Source: Oscillatoria sp. FACHB-1406
Lineage (GTDB): Bacteria > Cyanobacteriota > Cyanobacteriia > Cyanobacteriales > Spirulinaceae
Length of the DNA stretch: 64,000 nucleotides
Direction: 5' to 3'
Assembly (NCBI RefSeq): GCF_014698145.1
Contig: NZ_JACJSM010000024.1
Span: forward strand, 1 to 64,000
Every line of letters begins with the position of its first letter. Within the stretch, counting starts at the first letter, position 1. A model generated the notes under the pieces. It did no database searches. It worked only from the letters and a program-made list of their open reading frames with translations, and was not told where the DNA came from. Position numbers and translations under genes: made by a program. Shown piece by piece: positions 7,538 through 37,315 of this stretch.

Positions 7538-8485
7538 ATGCCCAATCTTAAAGCGATTCGCGATCGCATTCAGTCGGTCAAGAATACCCAAAAAATTACA
7601 GAAGCCATGCGCCTGGTGGCAGCGGCCAAGGTGCGTCGCGCCCAAGAACAAGTGATTGCGACTCGTCCTTTTGCCGATCGCTTGGCCGAAGTCCTCTACA
7701 ATTTGCAAAACCGCTTGCAATTTGAAGATGTATCTTTGCCGTTACTCTCGCAGCGTCCGGTGCGTACTGTCGGGCTGTTAGTAGTGTCGGGCGATCGCGG
7801 TCTCTGCGGCGGTTACAATGGCAACGTTATTAAACGCGCCGAAATCCGCGCCAGAGAACTCGAAGCCGAAGGAATCGCCTATCAGTATATCCTCATCGGA
7901 CGCAAAGCCGTTCAGCACTTCGAGCGTCGCAATGCCCCGATTTTGGACAAATACACCAACCTCGAGCAAATTCCTAAATCGGAAGAAGCCGCAGAAATTG
8001 CCGACGTACTTTTATCGGCATTTCTATCGGAAACTGTCGATCGCGTCGAACTGATTTACACCAAATTCGTTTCCTTAATTAGTTCTCGCCCCGTCATTCA
8101 AACCCTGTTACCTTTAACTACCCAAGGTTTAGAAGTTATGGATGACGAAATTTTCCGCCTCACCACGCGCGGCGGCGAATTTCAAGTCACCCGGGAGAAA
8201 GTCGCAGCAAAACCGATTCAACCTTTCCCCAAAGACACGATTTTCGAGCAAGATCCGGCGCAAATTCTCGATGCGCTCCTGCCGTTGTATTTGAACAACC
8301 AATTGCTGCGCGCCTTACAAGAGTCGGCAGCTAGCGAATTGGCAGCGCGGATGACGGCGATGAGCAACGCCAGCGATAACGCCAGCGATCTCGCCTCGAA
8401 CCTCACGCTATCTTACAACAAAGCCCGTCAGGCTGCGATTACTCAAGAACTGCTCGAAGTGGTTGCCGGTGCTAACGCGCTGTAA
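7538..8485 (+). CDS. atpC: ATP synthase F1 subunit gamma
   Basis: The 315-residue central-shaft subunit (atpG in many bacterial annotations). The N-terminal helix reads [21 protein letters not shown] and the C-terminal helix [15 protein letters not shown]...[12 protein letters not shown], which pair to form the rotating coiled coil. The extra segment (about residues 195-235) is typical of photosynthetic gamma subunits and helps suppress ATP hydrolysis. It is the last gene of the operon and is followed by a strong terminator. Confidence 0.97.
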
Positions 8486-8566: not shown

Positions 8567-8728
8567 GTTGCGATCGGCTTGTTAATTTCTCGTCTATCGA
8601 ACTTACGCTAGGGTCCACGTGCACAGCTTCGCGCCTCCATAGGCGCTCGATGTCATCGAACTCACGTTGCTAAACAGGAAATTGCAGCATGAATAATTAT
8701 TTGACGCAATAACCTAATTATCTCAAGC

Positions 8729-9934
8729 TTATAGACTTTCTGATTTTGCTGCTAACTTTAAACTTAATAATTCATACTCGTGCTTTTCCTTATTCAGAAC
8801 AGTAGATACAATTGAATACTCTTGAATAGTAGCTACATAAACCACACTTTTACTAATAGTTTCTACATCTTTCATAGCTGAATCTGCTATAAAGCATTTG
8901 TATTTTTTCTTAGAGCCGACTTCTTGTAAAGTCAATATTTTCCTACTATAATTAATATGAGTCAATTTTACATTTACACAAATTTCTGTTTCTGCTCTTA
9001 ACTTAGTATTCTTGATAACATCAAGAACTTCAAATACAGTTTCTTGTTCTATTTCTCCCATTTGTACCTTTTGACCAGGAGAAGCCCAATCTATGTGTAA
9101 TTTACTGATGCCAATTTTAGTTAAAGCTGTTAAAAACTCCGTATATTTAAAAGCTGTTTTCTTTTTTAATACATTTAATTTAGCTGGCAATTCTTCTGTA
9201 TTTGCCCCAAGATTTATTAACTCGATAAATTCTTTTAAGCATTGCCCTAAGAAAGACTCTCCTAAACCTAAACTATCTTCTTCATATACAGTTCCTTCCA
9301 GGCGCATTCCAAATGAGCCACTAAATACACCAGACATCACAACTTGAGTCTTTTGCTTTACTTCATGTGGTATGATATGGCTTTCTGATTTTCCTAGCTT
9401 GATTTGACCGATAGCATCAATTGTTTCTTGTAATGAAGATAAAATTAACCCCAAATTACCGACAGGAGCTTCTGTAATTTCTTCTTCGGGAAAATGTAAA
9501 GTAAAATCAATTATTTCCCTTCTTTTTTGAATGGAAACCGTTTCAAGATTATTACGCTCGCAATTATCTTCAGATTGAATAACTTGCCCTAATTCTGGCA
9601 AATATTCATCTGGAATTTCATTGCAATTAACAGTTTCTACAACAACGTTTGTCCCTTCTTCGTGAGGAATTTTTACATAATATACAAAACCATCTTCTGT
9701 ATTGTTAAATATATCTCTAAGCTCAACTTTACCCCGAACTACGTTTTGAAATCTAGATGAAGACATGGGAGCATATAACCATATCTCAGAAACATCAGAA
9801 CTATCTACACAAATTACAATAAAAATCAATCCAGATTTGTTTTTACAGGAAAACAATACTGGCTTGTCATAAAAGTCGTAGACTTCTATAATATCAATCT
9901 GTCCTAATATTGTTCGTTCCGGCAAAAAGCTCAT
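8729..9934 (-). CDS. DUF6575-like accessory protein, function unknown
   Basis: A 401-residue protein. Its N-terminal ~100 residues resemble DUF6575: LGQIDIIEVYDFYDKPVLF, then a WLYAPMSSSRF segment and VELRDIFNNTEDGFVYYVKI. The middle (about 150-290) is predicted mixed alpha/beta, and the C-terminal ~90 residues look like a small beta-rich domain (YSRKILTLQEVGSKKKYKCFIADS). There is no signal peptide, membrane helix or recognisable catalytic motif. The gene is clearly more AT-rich than its neighbours and lacks HIP1 sites, which suggests transfer. It starts 9 bp after the stop of the small gene 9944-10357, so the two are very probably co-transcribed. The biological role is unknown. Confidence 0.75.
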   Translation of the reverse strand: MSFLPERTILGQIDIIEVYDFYDKPVLFSCKNKSGLIFIVICVDSSDVSEIWLYAPMSSSRFQNVVRGKVELRDIFNNTEDGFVYYVKIPHEEGTNVVVETVNCNEIPDEYLPELGQVIQSEDNCERNNLETVSIQKRREIIDFTLHFPEEEITEAPVGNLGLILSSLQETIDAIGQIKLGKSESHIIPHEVKQKTQVVMSGVFSGSFGMRLEGTVYEEDSLGLGESFLGQCLKEFIELINLGANTEELPAKLNVLKKKTAFKYTEFLTALTKIGISKLHIDWASPGQKVQMGEIEQETVFEVLDVIKNTKLRAETEICVNVKLTHINYSRKILTLQEVGSKKKYKCFIADSAMKDVETISKSVVYVATIQEYSIVSTVLNKEKHEYELLSLKLAAKSESL

Positions 9935-9943
9935 GTTTATAAC

Positions 9944-10357
9944 TTATGTTTTATTAGAATCTTCTTGTTTTAGATCGATTATCTCAAACACCTTATAAGG
10001 TTTTGTATTCTCTGGTATCCACCAAGTATGATGTGATTTTTCATTCTTTGAGGGAGTATGTTGTATTCTTCCCATTTCTTCGCTCAAACTACCCTTAGCT
10101 ATTTTCATCTTTTTAAAACGCGGAATTCTCATAGATAGATTTTTTGCATCATCCAATGATGAATGAATTGATAAACCATAGGCTTGACATTCGGGAATAC
10201 TCGTAGGGCATTCCTTCTTTGGATTTTCTTGTCGCCAAGATAAGAAATCTTTTGGTTGGGGTGTTTCATGAGCCTTGTTAATAAACCTGTAAAACTCTCC
10301 CGATGCAATATCAGATTGCGATGGAGGACAGTCATCGGGAAAGTGTTTTGAATACAT
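9944..10357 (-). CDS. Small partner protein of the DUF6575-like gene, function unknown
   Basis: A 137-residue soluble protein, first gene of an AT-rich two-gene unit. Conserved-looking features are an N-terminal DDCPPSQSDIASGEFYRFI, a Cys-containing CPTSIPECQAYGLSIHSSLDDA segment, and a C-terminal HHTWWIPENTKPYKVFEI. I recall similar small proteins preceding DUF6575 genes in other bacteria, but no function is established that I can name. The Cys and His residues could bind metal, but this is speculative. An internal start (MTVLHRN...) in another frame is a shadow. Confidence 0.65.
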   Translation of the reverse strand: MYSKHFPDDCPPSQSDIASGEFYRFINKAHETPQPKDFLSWRQENPKKECPTSIPECQAYGLSIHSSLDDAKNLSMRIPRFKKMKIAKGSLSEEMGRIQHTPSKNEKSHHTWWIPENTKPYKVFEIIDLKQEDSNKT

Positions 10358-10597
10358 TATCCTTTGTTTTGTGGATATAAAACAATATTAACACTTAAAC
10401 AATTGTTACAGTTAAACTAAAATAAGCGATTCCCTATTGCCATATTTGATAGCCGTAGCTCCTGAAGTTAGGACGAGGTACTTAAAGCCATTTGTCTCTC
10501 TCGGCTTTGATAATGTGTTAAGCAAGTTGGTTAGCGCTATAACTAAAACTTTACCAGTAGTAATATGACAAATAATGTGTCAATCGACAACAATATA

Positions 10598-10670
10598 TGG
10601 AGGATAGGGAACTCGAATCCCTGACCTCTGCGGTGCGATCGCAGCGCTCTACCAACTGAGCTAATCCCCC
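10598..10670 (-). tRNA. tRNA-Ala (anticodon CGC)
   Basis: A 73-nt cloverleaf on the minus strand. The acceptor GGGGGAU pairs with AUCCUCC and includes the G3-U70 wobble that identifies alanine tRNAs. The D arm is GCTC...GAGC. The anticodon stem CTGCG/CGCAG holds loop ATCGCAC with anticodon CGC. The variable loop is AGGTC and the T arm AGGGA-TTCGAGT-CCCTA, with discriminator A. CCA is not encoded. The anticodon arm contains the HIP1 octamer GCGATCGC, so HIP1 covers the anticodon. It lies 53 bp downstream of the HAD gene on the same strand. Confidence 0.95.
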
Positions 10671-10723
10671 AGGCTCCGAACCGAGTACCGATTCAAAAAG
10701 TCCAGCATCCTCTATTTTAGCAC

Positions 10724-12956: not shown

Positions 12957-13292
12957 TTAGCTAATGCCGTAACCCGTATGTTGGCGCATATAAGGCGGAT
13001 GAAAAGCTAAAATAATGTTCTCTTTAGGAACCCCTGCCGCTACGAGTTCATCGGTAATCCCATCTTCAATTCCATCGCGGTGAATCCAAATTTTACCCTC
13101 AATAATTTCGACATGGACGACACAACCATGAATGCGGCGATCTCCATCCCACCCGGCATTCATAAGGACGAAATTATTGCGATCGCGGTCTACAATAAAT
13201 TTGCTCTCTATTTCGCCATGTCCGAAGGGAATGCGATGATGGGCTTCTAGGATTTTATAAAGAATGTTTCGATATTCTTCTACTCTATCCAT
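12957..13292 (-). CDS. xisI: XisI family protein
   Basis: A 111-residue protein matching the XisI family: MDRVEEYRNILYKILEAHH, then IWIHRDGIEDGITDELVAAGVPKENIILAFHPPYMRQHTGY. It was first described as a factor controlling excision of the nitrogenase fdxN element in heterocystous cyanobacteria, but homologues are common where no such element exists, as here. Its ATG overlaps the end of xisH by 13 bp, so the two are translationally coupled. The real role is unknown; a toxin-antitoxin or nuclease/immunity-like function is only a hypothesis. Confidence 0.92.
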   Translation of the reverse strand: MDRVEEYRNILYKILEAHHRIPFGHGEIESKFIVDRDRNNFVLMNAGWDGDRRIHGCVVHVEIIEGKIWIHRDGIEDGITDELVAAGVPKENIILAFHPPYMRQHTGYGIS

Positions 13293-13693
13293 TCTGCAAC
13301 CTCTGCGGTTTTGGCGTTAAATGTAATTAATTTTAAGTGTTGCTCCTCAATCACCATTTGTGCAATTTCTTCTTGAAAAAAATCGAGATAAACTTCAGCA
13401 GGAATTGCCAAATAGAGAACGCGATCGGGTTGAGAACGTTTGAGACCATCTCTGTACAAAATATATTGACCTAGGGCATTTTCTAAGTCATTAACAGGAG
13501 AGGGGTTCAAAAAGCTCTTGACTTCAACTGCAATTTTACGTCCCTCTCGTTCGGCAACGATGAACTTTTCTGCACTGAAATCGATGTATACCGAACGAGA
13601 GCCAATTGTCAATCGAAATAATTCATCTGTAATTGTCCATCCATCTTTTTCTAAAGCCTTTTTAACCGTGTCGTGGTAGACATCTTTAGCCAT
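13280..13693 (-). CDS. xisH: XisH family protein (PD-(D/E)XK nuclease-like)
   Basis: A 137-residue protein with the typical XisH start MAKDVYHDTVKKALEKDGWTI. The core YIDFSAEKFIVAEREGRKIAVEVKSF has an Asp and an E-x-K arranged as in the PD-(D/E)XK nuclease clan, where Pfam places XisH. NDLENALGQYILYRDGL is also conserved in the family. It is encoded immediately upstream of xisI. No neighbouring nif genes or excisable element are seen, so an excision role here is unlikely. Confidence 0.93.
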   Translation of the reverse strand: MAKDVYHDTVKKALEKDGWTITDELFRLTIGSRSVYIDFSAEKFIVAEREGRKIAVEVKSFLNPSPVNDLENALGQYILYRDGLKRSQPDRVLYLAIPAEVYLDFFQEEIAQMVIEEQHLKLITFNAKTAEVAEWIE

Positions 13694-25379: not shown

Positions 25380-25457
25380 GCAGTGCCGCGAAGCGCGATC
25401 GCGTCGAGCGAACTGAAAAATGATAGGATTGCAAAGACTCCTACCGATGATAGATGA

Positions 25458-26441
25458 ATGGCAGAAACTCTCTTCTTCAACGCCCTGCGCGAAGCAACCG
25501 ACGAAGAAATGGCGCGAGACCCCAGCGTCTTCGTCTTAGGTGAAGATGTCGGTCATTACGGCGGTTCCTACAAAGTGACCAAAGACCTTTACCAAAAATA
25601 CGGCGACCTGCGAGTCCTCGACACCCCCATCGCCGAAAATAGCTTCACTGGTATGGCGATTGGTGCTGCCATGACCGGACTGCGCCCGATTATCGAAGGC
25701 ATGAACATGGGCTTTTTGCTTCTCGCCTTCAACCAAATTTCCAATAACGCTGGAATGCTGCGCTACACCTCCGGCGGCAATTTCAAAATTCCCGTCGTCA
25801 TTCGCGGTCCCGGCGGAGTCGGACGGCAACTCGGTGCCGAACACTCCCAACGCTTAGAAGCTTACTTCCAAGCCGTTCCCGGACTGAAAATCGTTGCCTG
25901 TTCCACCCCTTACAACGCCAAAGGATTGCTCAAATCCGCCATTCGCGACGATAACCCCGTCCTTTTCTTCGAGCACGTTCTTCTTTATAACCTTAAGGAG
26001 AACTTACCCGACCACGAATATCTCGTTCCCCTCGACCGCGCCGAAATCGTGCGTCCGGGGAAAGATGTCACCATTCTCACCTACTCGCGGATGCGCCATC
26101 ACGCTATCCAAGCCGCTAAAACCCTCGAAAAACAAGGCTTCGACCCAGAAGTCATCGATTTAATTTCTCTCAAACCCCTCGATATGACAACAATTGGCGC
26201 TTCGGTTCGCAAAACCCATCGCGTCATCATTGTTGAAGAGTGCATGAGAACCGGCGGAATTGGGGCAGAACTGATGTCGCGCATCAACGAACAACTATTT
26301 GACGAACTCGATGCGCCCGTCGTGCGTCTCTCCTCCCAAGACATTCCCACGCCCTACAACGGCATCCTCGAAAACTTAACCATTGTCCAACCCGCTCAAA
26401 TTGTTGAAGCCGTCCAAAAAATGATGGCGCTACAAGTTTAG
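25458..26441 (+). CDS. pdhB: Pyruvate dehydrogenase E1 component, beta subunit
   Basis: A 327-residue protein of the E1-beta family. It begins [36 protein letters not shown], with the TPP/Mg-binding and partner-contact region [17 protein letters not shown]. The C-terminal transketolase domain contains [18 protein letters not shown]. With E1-alpha (not in this window) it decarboxylates pyruvate and transfers the acetyl group to lipoyl-E2. In cyanobacteria the alpha and beta genes are commonly unlinked. Confidence 0.95.
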
Positions 26442-26634
26442 TGAATAATGAATAGTGAATAGTGAATGGTGGATCGTTTTATAGGCAGCAAGTTACTTTT
26501 GTATTTCTCGCGATAGAGAGAAGATTGCAAAATTGACCGCTTCCCACTCGCTCTGAGCGCGAACTCCCAAACCGTAACGCTTCCCTAATAACTATTCACT
26601 ATGCACTATTAACTATTTACTATTTACTATTTAA
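26442..26634 (+). repeat. Heptamer repeats flanking the pdhB-secD spacer
   Basis: GAATAGT-type heptamers follow the pdhB stop (about 26442-26466) and ACTATTCACT/ACTATTTACT-type heptamers precede the secD start (about 26588-26634). The two blocks are partly complementary, so the spacer RNA could fold into a long weak hairpin. Confidence 0.7.
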
Positions 26635-26637
26635 GTA

Positions 26638-28053
26638 ATGCAAAAACAGCGCTCGTTAATCGCTTTAATTTTAGTCTTAGTTGTCGCCGCGATCGTCGTC
26701 CTCATTCAACTGCCTCTCGCTTTGGGACTCGACTTAAAAGGCGGCGCGCAACTCACCATTCAAGTGCAGCCCGCCGAAGGTTCTGCCCGCATTACCCCAG
26801 AAAACCTTAACGATGTTAAACGGGTTCTGGAAAACCGCGTTAACGGTTTAGGCGTAGCCGAACCTATCGTGCAAACCGCTGGCAACGATAAAATTCTCGT
26901 TCAACTGCCGGGAGTCAGCGACCCCCAACAGGCAGAACGAGTTTTAGGAGGAACGGCAAAACTCGAGTTTCGCCCGCAAAAACCCGGCACGGAAGCCGAA
27001 TTTGATGTCCGGCGGCAAGAGTTAGCCTTAGCCAAGGCTAAATTACAAGTGCTGTTGGAGGATAAAAAGCAACAGCCCGACGAAGCCGCCCTCGCTGAAG
27101 CGAAAGCCCAGCTTCAAAAAACGAATGAAACGATTCTCAATCTCTTTGAACCTGTCGATTTAACGGGAAAAAACCTCGCCAATGCAGGTTTTGGAACGAC
27201 TTCCGGCGGCGATAGCTGGCAAGTCAGCGTTGAATTCGACCCGGACGGCGGTCAAAAATTTGCCGACCTTACTAAAAGTATTGCTGGAACGGGACGCACG
27301 ATTGGGATTTTCTTAGACGACGAATTGATTAGTTCGCCCATCGTGAGTGCCGAATATGCCGCCCAAGGGATTGCAGGCGGTAGAGCTAGCATCAGTGGCA
27401 ATTTTACCAGCGAGACAGCGCGGGATTTAGCCGTGCAACTGCGTGGCGGCGCGCTGCCCTTCCCCGTAGCGGTGGTAGAAAACCGCACGGTGGGTGCAAC
27501 CTTGGGGCGCGATAGTATCAACCGCAGTATTATCGCTGGATTGGCGGGATTAGTCCTGGTTTTTGTCTTTATGGGAGTCTATTACAGGCTGCCGGGATTG
27601 ATTGCCAACATTGCCCTGGCGATTTATGCGCTGCTGACTTTAGCGGCTTATTCTTTAATTGGCGTGACGATGACGCTGCCGGGGATTGCTGGATTTATCC
27701 TCAGTATCGGGATGGCGGTGGATGCAAACGTGCTGATTTTCGAGCGCACCCGCGAAGAGTTGCGCGACGGTCAAAAACTGTATCGGGCGGTCGAATCTGG
27801 CTTTTACCGCGCGTTTTCGAGCATTTTGGATAGTAACGTTACGACCTTGATTGCTTGCGCCGCGTTGGGATATTTTGGTTCGGGGCTGGTACGCGGTTTT
27901 GCGGTGACGCTGTTTATCGGCGTTCTGATTAGTATGTTTACGGCGCTGACGTGCAGCCGAACGCTTTTATTATTAGTCGTTTTGGGCTTCCCCGGCGTGC
28001 GCCAAAAACCGGAATTATTTTGCCCGAATTTACCGGCTTCGGTGAGGTCTTAG
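26638..28053 (+). CDS. secD: Protein translocase subunit SecD
   Basis: A 471-residue membrane protein with the hallmark D1 motif GLDLKGGAQLTIQV after the first helix, a periplasmic P1 region including an Ala/Lys-rich insertion typical of cyanobacteria, then GVGVAEPIVQTAGNDKILVQLPG. The cluster of five C-terminal helices contains SIGMAVDANVLIFERTREELR. With SecF it uses the proton gradient to pull exported proteins through SecYEG. secF follows directly. Confidence 0.97.
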   Translation: MQKQRSLIALILVLVVAAIVVLIQLPLALGLDLKGGAQLTIQVQPAEGSARITPENLNDVKRVLENRVNGLGVAEPIVQTAGNDKILVQLPGVSDPQQAERVLGGTAKLEFRPQKPGTEAEFDVRRQELALAKAKLQVLLEDKKQQPDEAALAEAKAQLQKTNETILNLFEPVDLTGKNLANAGFGTTSGGDSWQVSVEFDPDGGQKFADLTKSIAGTGRTIGIFLDDELISSPIVSAEYAAQGIAGGRASISGNFTSETARDLAVQLRGGALPFPVAVVENRTVGATLGRDSINRSIIAGLAGLVLVFVFMGVYYRLPGLIANIALAIYALLTLAAYSLIGVTMTLPGIAGFILSIGMAVDANVLIFERTREELRDGQKLYRAVESGFYRAFSSILDSNVTTLIACAALGYFGSGLVRGFAVTLFIGVLISMFTALTCSRTLLLLVVLGFPGVRQKPELFCPNLPASVRS

Positions 28054-28064
28054 GGAGGCTGAAT

Positions 28065-28097
28065 AATTCGTAATTCGTAATTCGTAATTCGTAATTG
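28065..28097 (+). repeat. Heptamer tandem repeat (TAATTCG)n between secD and secF
   Basis: Four to five tandem units of TAATTCG fill almost the whole spacer between secD and secF. The same heptamer forms long arrays at 51664-51752 and 52894-53006. Confidence 0.85.
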
Positions 28098-28103
28098 ATT
28101 GAG

Positions 28104-29081
28104 ATGAGACTTAATGTTATTAAACTGCAACGTTTATGGTGGACGGTTTCGATTGTTGCCACCATCGCCGGTTTTGCAGCAATGGCGATTTCTTATACGC
28201 GGTTTAATGCGCCGCTGCGTCCGGGTTTAGATTTTATCGGCGGTACTAGACTGCAACTGGCGCTCGATTGCTCGGTGGCGGGACAGTGCGACAAACCGAT
28301 TGAGGTGGCGCGAGTACGAGATGTTTTAGCCCAGCAAGGGCTGGAAGGAAGCACAATTCAAGTTATCGACGGGAATACTCTTTCCGTGCGCACTAAGGAG
28401 TTAAAACCCGAACAGCGTAACGAGTTACAAAATGCTCTCAGTAAGGAGATCGGGCGCTTCGACCCGAAAACCGTTCAAATCGATACGGTGGGGCCGACGG
28501 TGGGGCGCGAATTGTTTTCGGCGGGGTTGTTGGCGTTGGTGATTTCTTTTGTTGGGATTGCGGTTTATTTGAGCTTTCGCTTTAAGCTCGATTATGCAAT
28601 CTTGGCAATTGTGGCGCTGTTCCATGACGTAATGATAACGGCGGGATTTTTTGCTTTTCTCGGGTTAACGCCGTTTGCAGTAGAGGCGGATAGTTTGTTT
28701 TTGGTGGCGCTGTTAACGATTACGGGGTTTTCGGTAAATGATACGGTGGTCATTTACGATCGCGTGCGAGAATTAATCGCAGAGCGCGGCGGTAAAGATT
28801 CGATCCAAAATATCGTTGACGATGCGGTGAATCAGACCTTAACGCGATCGATTAATACCAGTTTGACGACGACGCTACCGTTAATTGCGATCTTTTTCTT
28901 CGGCGGCGAAACTTTGAAGTATTTTGCACTGGCGTTAATTATTGGCTTTATTTCGGGTGCGTATTCCAGTATTTTCATTGCCAGTACAACGCTGGCTTGG
29001 TGGCGCAGTCGTAAGGGGGAAACGCTTGCAGTAGCAACACCTCAAGATACTCGCCCTGCCAATTCCATCGATAAAATCTAA
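28104..29081 (+). CDS. secF: Protein translocase subunit SecF
   Basis: 325 residues from the ATG at 28104 ([13 protein letters not shown]). A TTG at 28095 would add three residues from the repeat. Motifs are [12 protein letters not shown] after the first helix, a periplasmic domain, and the C-terminal helices with [19 protein letters not shown] and [14 protein letters not shown]. It forms the SecDF complex with the preceding gene product in the plasma or thylakoid membrane. Confidence 0.96.
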
Positions 29082-29107
29082 GTGCTGTGTAACCCAACCC
29101 AAATTTT

Positions 29108-29509
29108 ATGAACGATCGTTCCACTGCACCCGTAGATCGCGATCGCGACCTCGAACGACAAGTCCAGAAACTTTACCAGTTTTCGCTGCGTCGCCGGTGG
29201 TTATTTGTCGGTTTCTGCTGGTTGATTCTTGCCCCATTAAGTCTTTGGGCGCTGCGCGATCGCATTTCTTTAGGGTTGGATTATTTGACTTGGGCGCTCG
29301 TCCGCACGACTCTTATTTTTGACCCCATTCCGAGTCTGGCTTTGGGGTTTTGTATTGCCATTCTCGCGGCTGTTCTGTTCGCGCAAACTTACCGTCACCT
29401 TTTTGGGTTTTCTCCTCAATATCGACAGCAGTTAGAGCGCCAGGTCATGCGGATTCGAGCAACGGGACAAAATCATCCGCTTTGGAAGTCGATCGTGAAT
29501 AATGAATAA
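29108..29509 (+). CDS. Conserved membrane protein of unknown function downstream of secDF
   Basis: A 133-residue protein with a charged N-terminus (DRDRDLERQVQKLYQF), two hydrophobic segments (WLFVGFCWLILAPLSLWAL and SLALGFCIAILAAVLFA) and a basic tail. It starts 26 bp after secF on the same strand, so it is likely in the secDF operon. I do not recognise a named family. Confidence 0.7.
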   Translation: MNDRSTAPVDRDRDLERQVQKLYQFSLRRRWLFVGFCWLILAPLSLWALRDRISLGLDYLTWALVRTTLIFDPIPSLALGFCIAILAAVLFAQTYRHLFGFSPQYRQQLERQVMRIRATGQNHPLWKSIVNNE

Positions 29510-31955: not shown

Positions 31956-33239
31956 ATGAGCAGCTTAAGGAAGGCATCTCTGCGGCAGCTAGCAATCGGG
32001 GGGGGAAGTGTGCCGCTTCTCCCCCCTTATCGCTTGCCGGAAACGCGAGAAGTCATCCTCGGACGCGAACCCGTCTGTCATCTCATTCTCGACCCGAAAA
32101 TTTACACCGGCGTTTCTCGCCGTCACTTAGCTATTCGCCCTCAGTCCTACGGCTGGGAAGCGTGCGATCTCGGCAGCGCCAACGGCACTTACCTCAACGG
32201 TCAGCGCTTGCATCGCTGCCAACCTCTCCAAAACGGCGATCGCCTCAGCCTGGGTAAAAACGGCCCGGAGTTCATTTTTGAGGTCGAAGATGCTTCAAAC
32301 ACCTCGAATCCCGACTATGTAACCTTTACACAGCTTTTCCCCATCCTCTCCACCGGCCGCGATTTAATGCAAAAAGCTTTTTTGCTCCCGGCGGGGGTGA
32401 CGGTGGTATTTGTCGTTCTCATGTTTGCCTCCGTCGGGCAACCCGTCGCCTTTAACCTGCTATTCGCTGCCTATCTCGCCGGAGCGGCCTATTACTACGT
32501 CTATCAACTCTGCGGCAAGGAAAAGCCTTGGTGGGTTTTAATGGCTGTCGGATGGGCAACGGCAGGAATTGTTGTCAGTCCGCTCCTGATCGTGTTTGCC
32601 CAAATTTTCCGAGTCCTCTTACCCGGAGAACTGCCCGTACCGGGAGAAAAAATAGCCTTTCCCGCTTTGCTGGTGCGGATGTTTTTTGGGGCGGGCCTGA
32701 TGGAAGAGTTGCTCAAAGCCCTACCCGTTCTCTTTGCCTTTGGACTGGGACAATTGCTCAAGGGTTCCTCGCGGCTGCGCGAACGCTTTGGGGTGATGGA
32801 ACCCCTAGATGGCATTCTTTTGGGGGCGGCTTCTGCGGTGGGTTTTACCTTGATTGAAACCTTGGGGCAGTATATCCCGACAATTATTCAAAATACGAGG
32901 TTGCAATCCGGGGAAGGGTTGGGGCAGTTGTTGGGGCTGCAATTGCTGATTCCGCGCATTTTGGGGTCGGTTGCCGGTCATATGGCTTATAGCGGCTATT
33001 TCGGTTATTTCATCGGACTGAGCGCGCTCAAGGCGAGCAAGCGCACCCAGATTTTATTGGTGGGATATCTGACGGCTTCTTTTCTTCATGCGTTGTGGAA
33101 TGCGAGCGGTTATTACAACAGTTTGTTGTTAGCGCTGGTGGGCGTAATGTCCTATGCGTTTTTGGCGGCGGCTATTCTGAAGGCGAGGATTTTATCGCCA
33201 ACGCGATCGCAAAATTTTGCCACTCGTTTTTCTAAGTAA
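31956..33239 (+). CDS. FHA domain fused to PrsW-type intramembrane protease
   Basis: A 427-residue fusion. Residues about 30-110 form an FHA domain: VILGREPVCHLILDP, then the phosphothreonine-binding GVSRRHLAI and GSANGTYLNG. The rest is a polytopic membrane domain with PrsW family motifs EELLKALPVL (EExxK), TLIETLGQY and HALWNASGYY, the proposed metal or active-site residues. PrsW is known for site-1 cleavage of anti-sigma factors in Bacillus. FHA fusion suggests recruitment by phosphorylated partners (inference). It is likely co-transcribed with def. Confidence 0.85.
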   Translation: MSSLRKASLRQLAIGGGSVPLLPPYRLPETREVILGREPVCHLILDPKIYTGVSRRHLAIRPQSYGWEACDLGSANGTYLNGQRLHRCQPLQNGDRLSLGKNGPEFIFEVEDASNTSNPDYVTFTQLFPILSTGRDLMQKAFLLPAGVTVVFVVLMFASVGQPVAFNLLFAAYLAGAAYYYVYQLCGKEKPWWVLMAVGWATAGIVVSPLLIVFAQIFRVLLPGELPVPGEKIAFPALLVRMFFGAGLMEELLKALPVLFAFGLGQLLKGSSRLRERFGVMEPLDGILLGAASAVGFTLIETLGQYIPTIIQNTRLQSGEGLGQLLGLQLLIPRILGSVAGHMAYSGYFGYFIGLSALKASKRTQILLVGYLTASFLHALWNASGYYNSLLLALVGVMSYAFLAAAILKARILSPTRSQNFATRFSK

Positions 33240-33471
33240 TAATTCCGCTTCTGTCGCCGACGATAAGTGGCGAGTTATTCGAGATAGAGAAATTCCTATA
33301 ACGATGCTACCTTTGTCGAAATTCAAGCTTTTATAATTAAGTTTTTTTAAGTAAAGAATTGTATAGCGCTCGTTTTCGAGCAATGCCCCTTAAGGAGCGT
33401 AAGATTGAAGATAATGATGGTAGCCTACGAATTTGGCTCGGATCGATCGTGTAAGGAGAAAACCCGCGTCG

Positions 33472-35529
33472 ATGAGTATTTCAACTTCTGTACTTACAGA
33501 GTTGCTGCGATTCTTTCCCGATTTGCGACCTCAACTGTACTTCAAATCTTCCTTAATCGCGCTCTCTCACGCGATGGAAGACCAAGTTTTAGCCGATACG
33601 AACGTCCCCCTGATCGTTGCCACCTTTCAACGAGAGCGTTACTATCGCCAAGAAGCTCATCGCTATCGAAGGATTGCGGAGAAAACGGCTTGGGTGTACG
33701 TGCTGAGCGCACCAGAAACCGATTTTCGGAATGACTCGGGCGTTTACGAATCCGTTGCTTTCGATGTAGCCGATGCTTTAACGCAGGAATGGCATTTGGT
33801 TGTTCTGAATTCCCAGTATGCCAATTGTTTGATTTGTCGGGAGCGAGCGCTCAGTCCGGCGGAAATTGCGGCTTCGCCGGTCGAAAACAGTCGGCGCTTT
33901 GAAGGAATTTGGACGTTCGATCGCACCGTCAGTTTAAAAGCTGCCGAAATTTTACTCGATCGCATCTCGCTCTACCGCCCGGAATTAGCACCCAAACTCC
34001 AACAGACGCGCGACATTTTCTTAAGCGCTTCCCCCAGCCAGAAGATGCGCGATTTACCCCCAGCATCGAGTTCGCCCGCAACCAACCCCGATCCCTTCGT
34101 GCAACGCCTCGTCACCTACTTACAAGCGGGTCAGTACAAGCTGATGAAAGCATACCGTTCTATTGCTGCCCAAGAGCAAAAAGAACGCCTCATTCATCTG
34201 ATGACGGTGGCGATTCGCGAATCCCTCGATCCCGAAGAAGTCCTAGACATCGCTGTCGAGCAGTTGGGGCGAGTTTTAAGCGTTTGCCGCTGCATTATTT
34301 ATCGCTGTCAGGAAGACTCGCAAACGGTTAAGATCCTCCATGAATATTTGGGGTCGCAGGCTCCTTCCGCGCGCGGCGAAACTTGGCCCGTGGCGCAAAA
34401 TCCGCTGTTTCGGGAAGTTTTAGAGCGTCGGGCAACGGCTTGCGCGAGCGATACCCTAGAAGATCCGCGCCTCGCCAACGCCCCGAAAGCCTCCCTCGAG
34501 CCGTTTATCCGGCAATACGGGATTTCTTCTTGGCTGTGCGTTCCCGTTTTTTATAACAATCGCTTGCAAGGGATGGTGGAATTGCACCACTGCGGAACGA
34601 CGCGAGAAGAATGGACAAAAGAAGAAATTAGTTTAGTCGAAGCCATTGCAACGCAAGTCGGCGTGGCTTTGATTCAAGCTGAAGCTTACGCTAACCTAGA
34701 AGCGCTCAACGAACAACTCGAATCGTTCGATCGCACTCGCTCTAATCTGGTTGCGATCGTCGGACACGAATTGCGAACTCCCCTCTCTACCATACAAGTT
34801 TGTCTGGAAAGTTTAGCCAGCGAACCCGATATGTCTGCTGACTTGCAACAAGTTATGCTCCATACCGGCCTTGCCGATGCGGAGCGGATGCGAAAACTCA
34901 TTCAAGACTTTCTCACCCTCTCCCAATTGGAAAGCGGGCGCGTCGAATGGAACCCAGAAAACCTCAATATTCAAGAGTGCATTAGTCTCTCTTTAAGCAA
35001 TACCTTTGCGCGCAAATCAAAACAAGAATTACCCGAAATTATTGCCCCCCTCACCAGCAATTTTCCCCTCGTTCGCGCCGATGGCGAGTGGCTGGTGCAA
35101 GTCCTCGCAAAATTGCTCGATAATGCTTGTAAGTTTACTGATGTTGGCGGGAGAATCGCGATCGAGGCTCGGGTAAATCGCGATCGAATGTTAGAAATTG
35201 CCATTTCCGACAATGGGCGCGGTATCGAACCGAGCAGTCTTGAAACCGTTTTCGATCGCTTTTATCAAGAAGAAGGCGCATTGCAGCGGACTGCGGGCGG
35301 GACGGGTTTGGGGTTGGCGATTTGCCGCCAAATTATTAAGCGTTGGGGAGGCGAAATTTGGGCAGTTTCCGAAGGGAAAGATAAGGGAAGCAAGTTTTAT
35401 TTTACGGTTCCGCTGGCTGAAGGCGCGATCGAGCCGCAGAATGGGGCTACAGCGCGCGCGCCCGAAGCGAGTTCCGTGAAACCTTCCGCCAACAGAACCC
35501 GCCAAAGAAGGACGAAAAAGCGACAATAA
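33472..35529 (+). CDS. Sensor histidine kinase with DICT and GAF domains
   Basis: The frame opens at 33433, but ATG 33472 (MSISTSVLTELLRFF) is the likelier start (685 aa). The N-terminal ~190 residues look like a DICT sensory domain (LALSHAMEDQVLADTNVPLIVATFQRE spans it). A GAF domain follows at about 220-400 (LCVPVFYNNRLQGMVELHH), then HisKA with the phospho-His in IVGHELRTPLS, and HATPase_c with LLDNACKF, DNGRGIEP and GTGLGLAICRQ. No membrane helix is present, so the sensor is cytoplasmic. No response regulator is adjacent (orphan kinase). The C-terminal tail is basic. Confidence 0.9.
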   Translation: MSISTSVLTELLRFFPDLRPQLYFKSSLIALSHAMEDQVLADTNVPLIVATFQRERYYRQEAHRYRRIAEKTAWVYVLSAPETDFRNDSGVYESVAFDVADALTQEWHLVVLNSQYANCLICRERALSPAEIAASPVENSRRFEGIWTFDRTVSLKAAEILLDRISLYRPELAPKLQQTRDIFLSASPSQKMRDLPPASSSPATNPDPFVQRLVTYLQAGQYKLMKAYRSIAAQEQKERLIHLMTVAIRESLDPEEVLDIAVEQLGRVLSVCRCIIYRCQEDSQTVKILHEYLGSQAPSARGETWPVAQNPLFREVLERRATACASDTLEDPRLANAPKASLEPFIRQYGISSWLCVPVFYNNRLQGMVELHHCGTTREEWTKEEISLVEAIATQVGVALIQAEAYANLEALNEQLESFDRTRSNLVAIVGHELRTPLSTIQVCLESLASEPDMSADLQQVMLHTGLADAERMRKLIQDFLTLSQLESGRVEWNPENLNIQECISLSLSNTFARKSKQELPEIIAPLTSNFPLVRADGEWLVQVLAKLLDNACKFTDVGGRIAIEARVNRDRMLEIAISDNGRGIEPSSLETVFDRFYQEEGALQRTAGGTGLGLAICRQIIKRWGGEIWAVSEGKDKGSKFYFTVPLAEGAIEPQNGATARAPEASSVKPSANRTRQRRTKKRQ

Positions 35530-35587
35530 GAAGTCTCTTAAAATTCTCTTCAGATCGGGAGATTCAGGAGAATAATTTCGATAGTCG

Positions 35588-35760
35588 AATCAAAAGTAGG
35601 GTGTGTTAGCGAAGCGTAACGCACCATTATCTCAGCCCAAAACCGATCTGTTTCTCAGTTTTTATCGGCTATGTTTTTGTAGATGTTTGGAGTCCAGTCA
35701 GAATCAAAAGTAGGGTGTGTTAGCAAAGCGTAACGCACCATTATCTCAGCCCAAAACCGA
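35588..35760. repeat. 59-bp direct repeat, two copies
   Basis: Copies at 35588-35646 and 35702-35760 differ at one position. Each begins AATCAAAAGTAGGGTG and contains the palindrome-like GTTAGCGAAGCGTAAC core that recurs at 17750, 35970 and 54905. They flank a 55-bp unique segment. Confidence 0.9.
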
Positions 35761-35804
35761 GGGGAGTCGATTCTGTCTATGCAACGTCATCTTCAATTGG
35801 TATA

Positions 35805-35910
35805 ATACCAATTCTCAGTCCTAATACAATAAATAAATTTTATTTGTAGGGGCATTGCACCGCAATGCCCTAATTCTGGGTAACAGTGCAAAATCAATGA
35901 GAACGGGTAT
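35805..35910. mobile_element. MITE-like repeat, family B copy 2
   Basis: A 106-bp element bounded by ATACCAATTCTCA and, inverted, ATACCCGTTCTCA. Its core is the stem GGGCATTGCACCGCAATGCCC. It is the inverted counterpart of 23590-23692. It abuts the family A copy that starts at 35912. Confidence 0.75.
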
Positions 35911-35911
35911 A

Positions 35912-36032
35912 ATACCAATTTAAAATTGCGTTGCCTAGAATAAACTTTCCTAAATTATCAGGATAACGGTGTGTTAGCGAAGCGTAACGCACCCTACTTT
36001 TCATTCTATGCAGCGACCCATCAATCTGGTAT
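35912..36032. mobile_element. MITE-like repeat, family A copy 2
   Basis: A 121-bp element with ends ATACCAATTT and ATCTGGTAT, same orientation and roughly 85-90% similar by eye to 17691-17812. It carries the GTGTTAGCGAAGCGTAAC palindromic core. Confidence 0.75.
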
Positions 36033-36118
36033 AAGTCAATTACTCTTTTATTTTGGCGCTATAACAAGCATAAGATTCAATATGAATCTGCGAAAAATGT
36101 TACAGCACTATTCTTAAA

Positions 36119-37183
36119 TCATGGAGAAAACCGAGATAAATCTTCAGGCTTTATCAGCCCTCTTTCGGTTATAATGCCTGCAATTAACTCGGCAGGAGTC
36201 ACATCAAAAGCAGGATTATAAAACTCCGCACCGGGCGTACAAATTCGAGTTTCTCCGACCTGATAAATCTCCGCCGAATCTCGCTCCTCAATCGGAATTT
36301 CTGACCCCGTTGTCAGCTTAAAATCTACCGTTGAAAACGGTGCTGCTACAAAAAACGGGACGTTATGCGCCTTCGCTACAACTGCCAAACCATAAGTCCC
36401 AATTTTATTCGCCGCATCTCCATTCGCCGCAATCCGATCTGCCCCCACAATCGCCACATCAATTAACCCTTGTTTCATGCAGTGGGCTGCCATTCCATCG
36501 GTAATAACCGTCACCGGGATTCCCTCTTGGACGCATTCCCACGCCGTCAATTTTGCCCCTTGCAAGCGCGGGCGCGTTTCATCAGCAAAGACTCGATTCA
36601 AGCGTCCCTCGCGCCACGCCGAACGGATTACCCCTAGGGCAGTCCCGTAACCCGCCGTTGCTAGCGCCCCCGCATTGCAGTGCGTCAAAATCGTTAACTT
36701 CTCCGGTTGCGAGGGCAACGCTATTAAGCCATTGTCGCCGATCGCGCGGCAGGTTTCCACATCCTCTGTTTGAATCGTTTTCGCGCTTTCTAGCAGCAGG
36801 GCGGGAATTTCTGCTAGCGGTACTGTAGCAGTGCGGGCGACTTGTAATTGGCGATCGATCGCCCAAAATAAATTCACCGCTGTCGGGCGCGTTTGGCGCA
36901 ATTGTGCGGCGATTTCCTCCAATTGGGCGAAAAAATCCTCGCGAGTCTCGGTGTTAATTTCCCGCGCGCCGAGATACATTCCATAAGCTGCGGCAACGCC
37001 AATGGCAGGCGCGCCCCGTACTACCATTGTTTTAATCGCATCGGCCATCTGTTCGCAGCGATCGATTTCTAAATAGGTTGTGGTTTCGGGTATGCGGGTT
37101 TGATCGATTAATACAACTCGATTCTCAACGTAGCGAATGGGATCGATTCCGCCGGAAGCCATTGTACTGGGCGCGTTAGGCAT
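36119..37183 (-). CDS. mtnA: Methylthioribose-1-phosphate isomerase
   Basis: A 354-residue enzyme of the eIF2B-related MtnA family in the methionine salvage pathway, converting 5-methylthioribose-1-phosphate to the ribulose form. Signature segments are [39 protein letters not shown] (with the conserved Cys), [17 protein letters not shown], and [23 protein letters not shown] (Asp of the active site). No other mtn genes are nearby. Confidence 0.96.
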
Positions 37184-37315
37184 TGTAAAAAACTAAGATT
37201 GAGGGAATGCCGAAGCAAACTTATCGATTCGGACTGGTTCATCCCAATTTTAGCGGATTGGGCGATCGCTCCGCGGTTGGACACTCAACCCGCATCGGGT
37301 TCCTAACCCAACAAA

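Follow-up and report, generated by a model that had tools for sequence, protein, structure and literature searches.

The closest described relative of the locus studied here is PD-T4-10, a two-gene DUF6575 toxin-antitoxin system of E. coli found by functional selection (Vassallo et al. 2022, PMC9519451). There, PD-T4-10B was toxic and was neutralised by PD-T4-10A, the A gene could not be deleted, B was needed for resistance, and the pair protected E. coli from T-even phages, including T4, by abortive infection; DUF6575 was one of the domains newly tied to defence in that work (PMC9519451). A second relevant pair is PDC-M63, a candidate defence pair of PADLOC consisting of a DUF6932 protein and PDC-M63B, for which the E. 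coli NILS69 representative, PDC-M63AB, gave no protection from the phages it was challenged with (PMC12409345). Pairs combining DUF6575 with DUF7226 are found in E. coli and Rahnella prophages and in some cyanobacteria (L015, L018, L026, L031, L032, and L034). Finally, PrrC, encoded with EcoprrI, is compared here for its gene arrangement: in the published description (PMC2610378), the linked type I restriction-modification (R-M) enzyme keeps it silent, and an anti-restriction factor of a phage activates it.

The window, i.e., the whole stretch of 64,000 nucleotides analysed from Oscillatoria sp. FACHB-1406, contains, at the positions given by the initial annotation, two ORFs, A and B, which are flanked by atpG and tRNA-Ala(CGC) and spaced by 9 bp (Table 1). 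B belongs to the Pfam family DUF6575 (1.7e-83), and no Pfam family was matched by A. The GC content of A and B (0.36 and 0.32) is well below that of the atp neighbours (0.52-0.55) and of the window (0.486), as is their third-position GC (0.28 and 0.22, versus 0.56-0.63 for the neighbouring atp genes), in agreement with the initial annotation, which had described an AT-rich two-gene unit on one strand. The same annotation noted the lack of HIP1 sites, which is correct (none between positions 7798 and 10635); since the window has longer HIP1-free stretches elsewhere (25402-29139 and 33210-37262), this is, taken alone, only a weak sign of foreign origin. In comparison with eight relatives, both genes show dN/dS values of 0.14-0.31, that is, purifying selection, and are therefore more than chance ORFs. 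The description of A as a Cys/His-containing protein carries little weight: a single His is invariant in the family, but the Cys residues are not conserved, with one lost in the window protein (ECQAYG, versus ECQ[A/T]CG in close relatives). A zinc-binding role for A was rejected on this ground.

Table 1. Features of the A/B locus, in window coordinates
Feature	Position	Strand	Description	Evidence
Gene A	9944..10357	-	PD-T4-10_A-like, 137 aa, presumed antitoxin, precedes B	ORF, PADLOC
Gene B	8729..9934	-	401 aa, DUF6575, presumed toxin	ORF, Pfam, PADLOC
B N-terminal domain	9569..9934	-	Residues 1-122, common to PD-T4-10_B and all DUF6575 partners of A	PADLOC, profile comparison
B C-terminal module	8762..9556	-	Residues 127-391, PDC-M63B-like, with a possibly OB-fold-like end (~312-396)	PADLOC, hhalign, Foldseek
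Transferred unit	8668..10389		DNA homology to the R-M-nested L004 copy, 92.5% identical	blastn
hsdS 3'-end remnant	8669..8692	+	24 bases (AKQEIAA*)	Alignment with HsdS tails of relatives
tRNA-Ala(CGC)	10597..10671	-	3' end faces the pair	

The comparison with PD-T4-10 was made through PADLOC profiles. Residues 8-125 of A match PD-T4-10_A (9.4e-6), and residues 22-123 of B match profile positions 26-124 of PD-T4-10_B (7.4e-10). Thus, the view that this is an undescribed system with no published function does not hold, as PD-T4-10 is published and its profiles recognise the two window proteins. In both systems, the genes are adjacent and in the same order, with the small A ahead of the DUF6575 protein B; the A proteins are homologous across nearly their whole length, and the N-terminal DUF6575 domain is common to both B proteins. 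The differences are that the C-terminal two thirds of the window B are not recognisably related, the match ending at position 124 of the 353 of the PD-T4-10_B profile, and that the PD-T4-10 frames overlap, whereas the window pair has a gap (in the E. coli prophage relatives, A and B overlap by 4 nt). Given that homology to PD-T4-10_B over the full length is absent, the pair is a PD-T4-10-like variant and not PD-T4-10 proper; judged by homology, it is a horizontally acquired variant with a different C-terminal module on B. Among the members of the A family, 20 of 22 match PD-T4-10_A, with the top value (2.3e-40) reached by L024, a locus from the same cyanobacterial order as the window organism, which also matches the N-terminal part of PD-T4-10_B (4.2e-30). 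Its A protein falls within the alignment of the window family, and by these profile matches L024 bridges that family to the E. coli system. An orphan cyanobacterial pair would thereby join a class with a demonstrated function.

Within 390 cyanobacterial genomes of the class, DUF6575 was identified in 14 and A in 11, all of the latter being among the 14 and having A adjoining B (hypergeometric 5e-19). The conserved pairing of a small protein with a DUF6575 protein, suggested previously, is thereby confirmed. Considering all loci gathered, A accompanies every distinct full-length B (25/25) but only three of the eight short ones, five having none (Fisher 2.4e-4), and the B copies devoid of A are all short or broken. 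As the loci were collected by B-directed searches, their selection did not depend on A. A full-length B that never occurs without A is what would be expected if B were poisonous alone, as the toxin-antitoxin reading predicts. The broken copies carry a stop codon (L020), are reduced to a 62-residue fragment (L021), or are interrupted by an insertion: in L053, on a 189 kb viral contig, a TnpB-like IS gene lies within the DUF6575 N-domain (L053:3620-5333).

B is a protein of two parts. Its residues 127-391 match PADLOC PDC-M63B (1.6e-11), and we designated window-type B proteins as type I and those of the E. coli prophage type as type II. The N-domains of the two types are homologous (hhalign probability 99.9), and the type I C-module is related to PDC-M63B of the Aeromonas caviae record (hhalign probability 97.8). 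Between the C-modules of the two types no relation was detectable (hhalign 2.7), and a common fold for the two was discarded as not significant at this value; type II B proteins end in a DUF7226-like region. The DUF6575/DUF7226 pairs thus share the A family and the B N-domain with the window pair and differ in having the DUF7226-like C-terminus in place of the PDC-M63B module. As for PDC-M63, its likeness is confined to that module, which in the window is fused behind DUF6575 and paired with A, whereas PDC-M63B has as partner a DUF6932 nucleotidyltransferase-like protein (PDC-M63A, DUF6932 in L027), with no A present. The window pair has no DUF6932 partner, and A does not match the PDC-M63A profile in PADLOC. 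On this homology, the PDC-M63B-like module appears to be used independently as well, behind a nucleotidyltransferase-like partner. Since A is found with two unrelated C-terminal types of B, it is A that follows the N-domain, and the C-module that is exchanged. The distances of A and the N-domain are correlated as well (Mantel r 0.91), although shared descent confounds this value and could alone produce it. A also occurs with short B proteins lacking any C-module (L014/L016, L023, and L024); in L016, the shortened B gene runs at its end into an overlapping XisI gene. A further architecture is observed in L019 (823-2412, minus strand), where B has two tandem N-terminal DUF6575 domains followed by one C-module.

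No meaningful relatives with solved structures were found by sequence. The AlphaFold2 model of A has a pLDDT of 90 and a pTM of 0.84, and several entries of the ART/RES fold are among its top Foldseek matches, including the RES-domain toxin VPA0770; with E values of 0.2 or worse and TM scores below 0.5, these weakly hint that the antitoxin A may have an ADP-ribosyltransferase-like fold. For B, the overall pLDDT is 57, and the prediction is good only at the N-domain and over the final 80 residues, being poor between them. An assignment of fold to the whole of B was dropped because of this unreliable middle part. The Foldseek matches of the C-terminal end are weak and enriched in OB folds, which faintly suggests that the predicted end (~312-396) is OB-fold-like.

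Based on the analogy to PD-T4-10, we consider it probable that A and B form a PD-T4-10-like toxin-antitoxin defence unit that would act by abortive infection, with A as antitoxin and B as toxin. Directly shown by the present analysis are the homology of both proteins to PD-T4-10, their strict pairing, the two-part build of B, the action of purifying selection on both genes, the horizontal acquisition of the pair, and its descent from an R-M-nested ancestor. In an uninfected cell, A would bind the conserved N-domain of B and keep the C-module silent; phage infection would upset the balance between A and B and render B active, and the infected cell, as with PD-T4-10, would stop growing or die ahead of phage production. 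The C-module, exchangeable between relatives, would be the poison and, to go by its OB-like end, might act on nucleic acid. With a C-module unlike that of PD-T4-10_B, the window system may also have another poison and another target. The negative result for PDC-M63AB in E. coli NILS69 counts against the toxin-antitoxin defence reading. Going one step further, A and the DUF6575 N-domain could form a general control unit behind which one effector module can be replaced by another (PDC-M63B-like, DUF7226-like, or PD-T4-10 type), with PD-T4-10 as a single branch within a modular class of toxin-antitoxin systems; we put this forward tentatively, as a proposal with slightly less than even chances. 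If the class is modular, profiles trained on its E. coli member will miss parts of it.

The attribution of the poison to the C-module has a main difficulty in the short pairs of A with the N-domain only (L023 and L024), and together with L014/L016 these pairs are left unexplained by it. They would fit a reversal of roles inside B, in which toxicity would reside in the conserved N-terminal DUF6575 domain and the variable C-module would act as a phage sensor or as a targeting part, and such a reversal is further favoured by the N-domain being the sole part common to all family members, PD-T4-10_B included. On the other hand, N-domains without A do occur (L022 and L030), whereas full-length B never does; moreover, the N-domain positions S58 and R61, which full-length B proteins conserve well, are not maintained in the short forms, a pattern more in keeping with a binding domain than with an enzyme. 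We regard reversed roles as unlikely, at roughly one chance in four, and favour A acting on the N-domain, with the C-module as the putative effector. The exchange of DUF6575 against a nucleotidyltransferase-like partner provides a handle on which part of B is toxic.

Regarding the origin of the pair, four Nostocales (L003, L004, L005, and L008) have it embedded in a type I R-M operon with the gene order hsdM-hsdS-pair-hsdR. Pfam identified hsdM, hsdS, and hsdR in L003, hsdR and a partial hsdS at the contig end in L004, and hsdM and hsdR in L005 and L008. The homology between the window and L004 begins inside hsdS, and the HsdS tails of the relatives (AKEEIAA* in L003, L004, and L008; AKGKIAA* in L005) are at the same distance from B as the remnant in the window. 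From this retained tail, it follows that the window pair descends from an R-M-nested ancestor whose R-M genes have since gone. In L003 (Nodularia), the island formed by the pair and the R-M genes has the same neighbours as the window pair, tRNA-Ala(CGC) and a HAD gene, the HAD genes being 46% identical. Within the flanks examined, no searched relative had the tRNA-Ala/HAD arrangement beside atpG, so that no empty site was identified there, and no convincing direct repeats marking an insertion were found. The nesting and the hsdS scar record a unit moving with a defence island and surviving alone after the island decayed. The window also encodes an XisI (3.1e-40) and XisH (9.1e-52) pair (12957-13693, minus strand), whose distance from the island, measured at the tRNA end, is about 2.6 kb.

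Other copies of the pair are found in E. coli prophages, on plasmids, and on 17 IMG/VR contigs; the phage genomes searched gave no matches. On an Arthrobacter plasmid, the pair adjoins an R-M methylase and hsdS, and one E. coli prophage copy occupies the replication-endonuclease/portal position, a defence hotspot (PMC9519451). The initial annotation of a mobile, toxin-antitoxin- or defence-like accessory system is hence upheld by the co-conserved partners and, in relatives, by defence-island neighbours (the R-M nesting in Nostocales and the R-M genes on the plasmid), its novelty being the part that fails. The patchy distribution (14/390 genomes) and the presence on plasmids and in prophages would also suit a plain addiction module whose role would be to stabilise mobile DNA, with none against phages. 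This is improbable, given that the pair has survived on the chromosome under purifying selection after the loss of its R-M neighbours and that the characterised relative, PD-T4-10, gives strong phage defence (PMC9519451).

The position between hsdS and hsdR in the four Nostocales, together with the hsdS remnant in the window, recalls the nesting of PrrC between hsd genes. By this precedent, B could be a guard of the R-M system, silenced by the type I complex or by A and freed when a phage blocks restriction. We regard this as a little less probable still than a plain addiction module. Most copies have no R-M linkage (the window, L002, L006, L007, L009, and the E. coli prophages), in the window's genome no strong relative of the HsdM of the nested system was found (the top match is 31% identical over half of the protein), and, differently from PrrC, B is inherited together with a partner of its own, A. 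That the two genes are neutral or serve a housekeeping role, for which no supporting point was found, is very improbable in view of the patchy distribution, foreign composition, defence neighbours, and homology to PD-T4-10, a relative whose characterised role is phage defence and not a housekeeping one.

Two neighbours of the pair in other genomes should also be mentioned. Directly behind it in an E. coli P2-like prophage, a DUF4145 protein is encoded that is weakly PD-T7-4-like (L034:7788-8486, 1.6e-7), and directly upstream of it on a conjugative Oscillatoria plasmid, a 1928-aa DEAD helicase (L028:1704-7490) is possibly another defence system.
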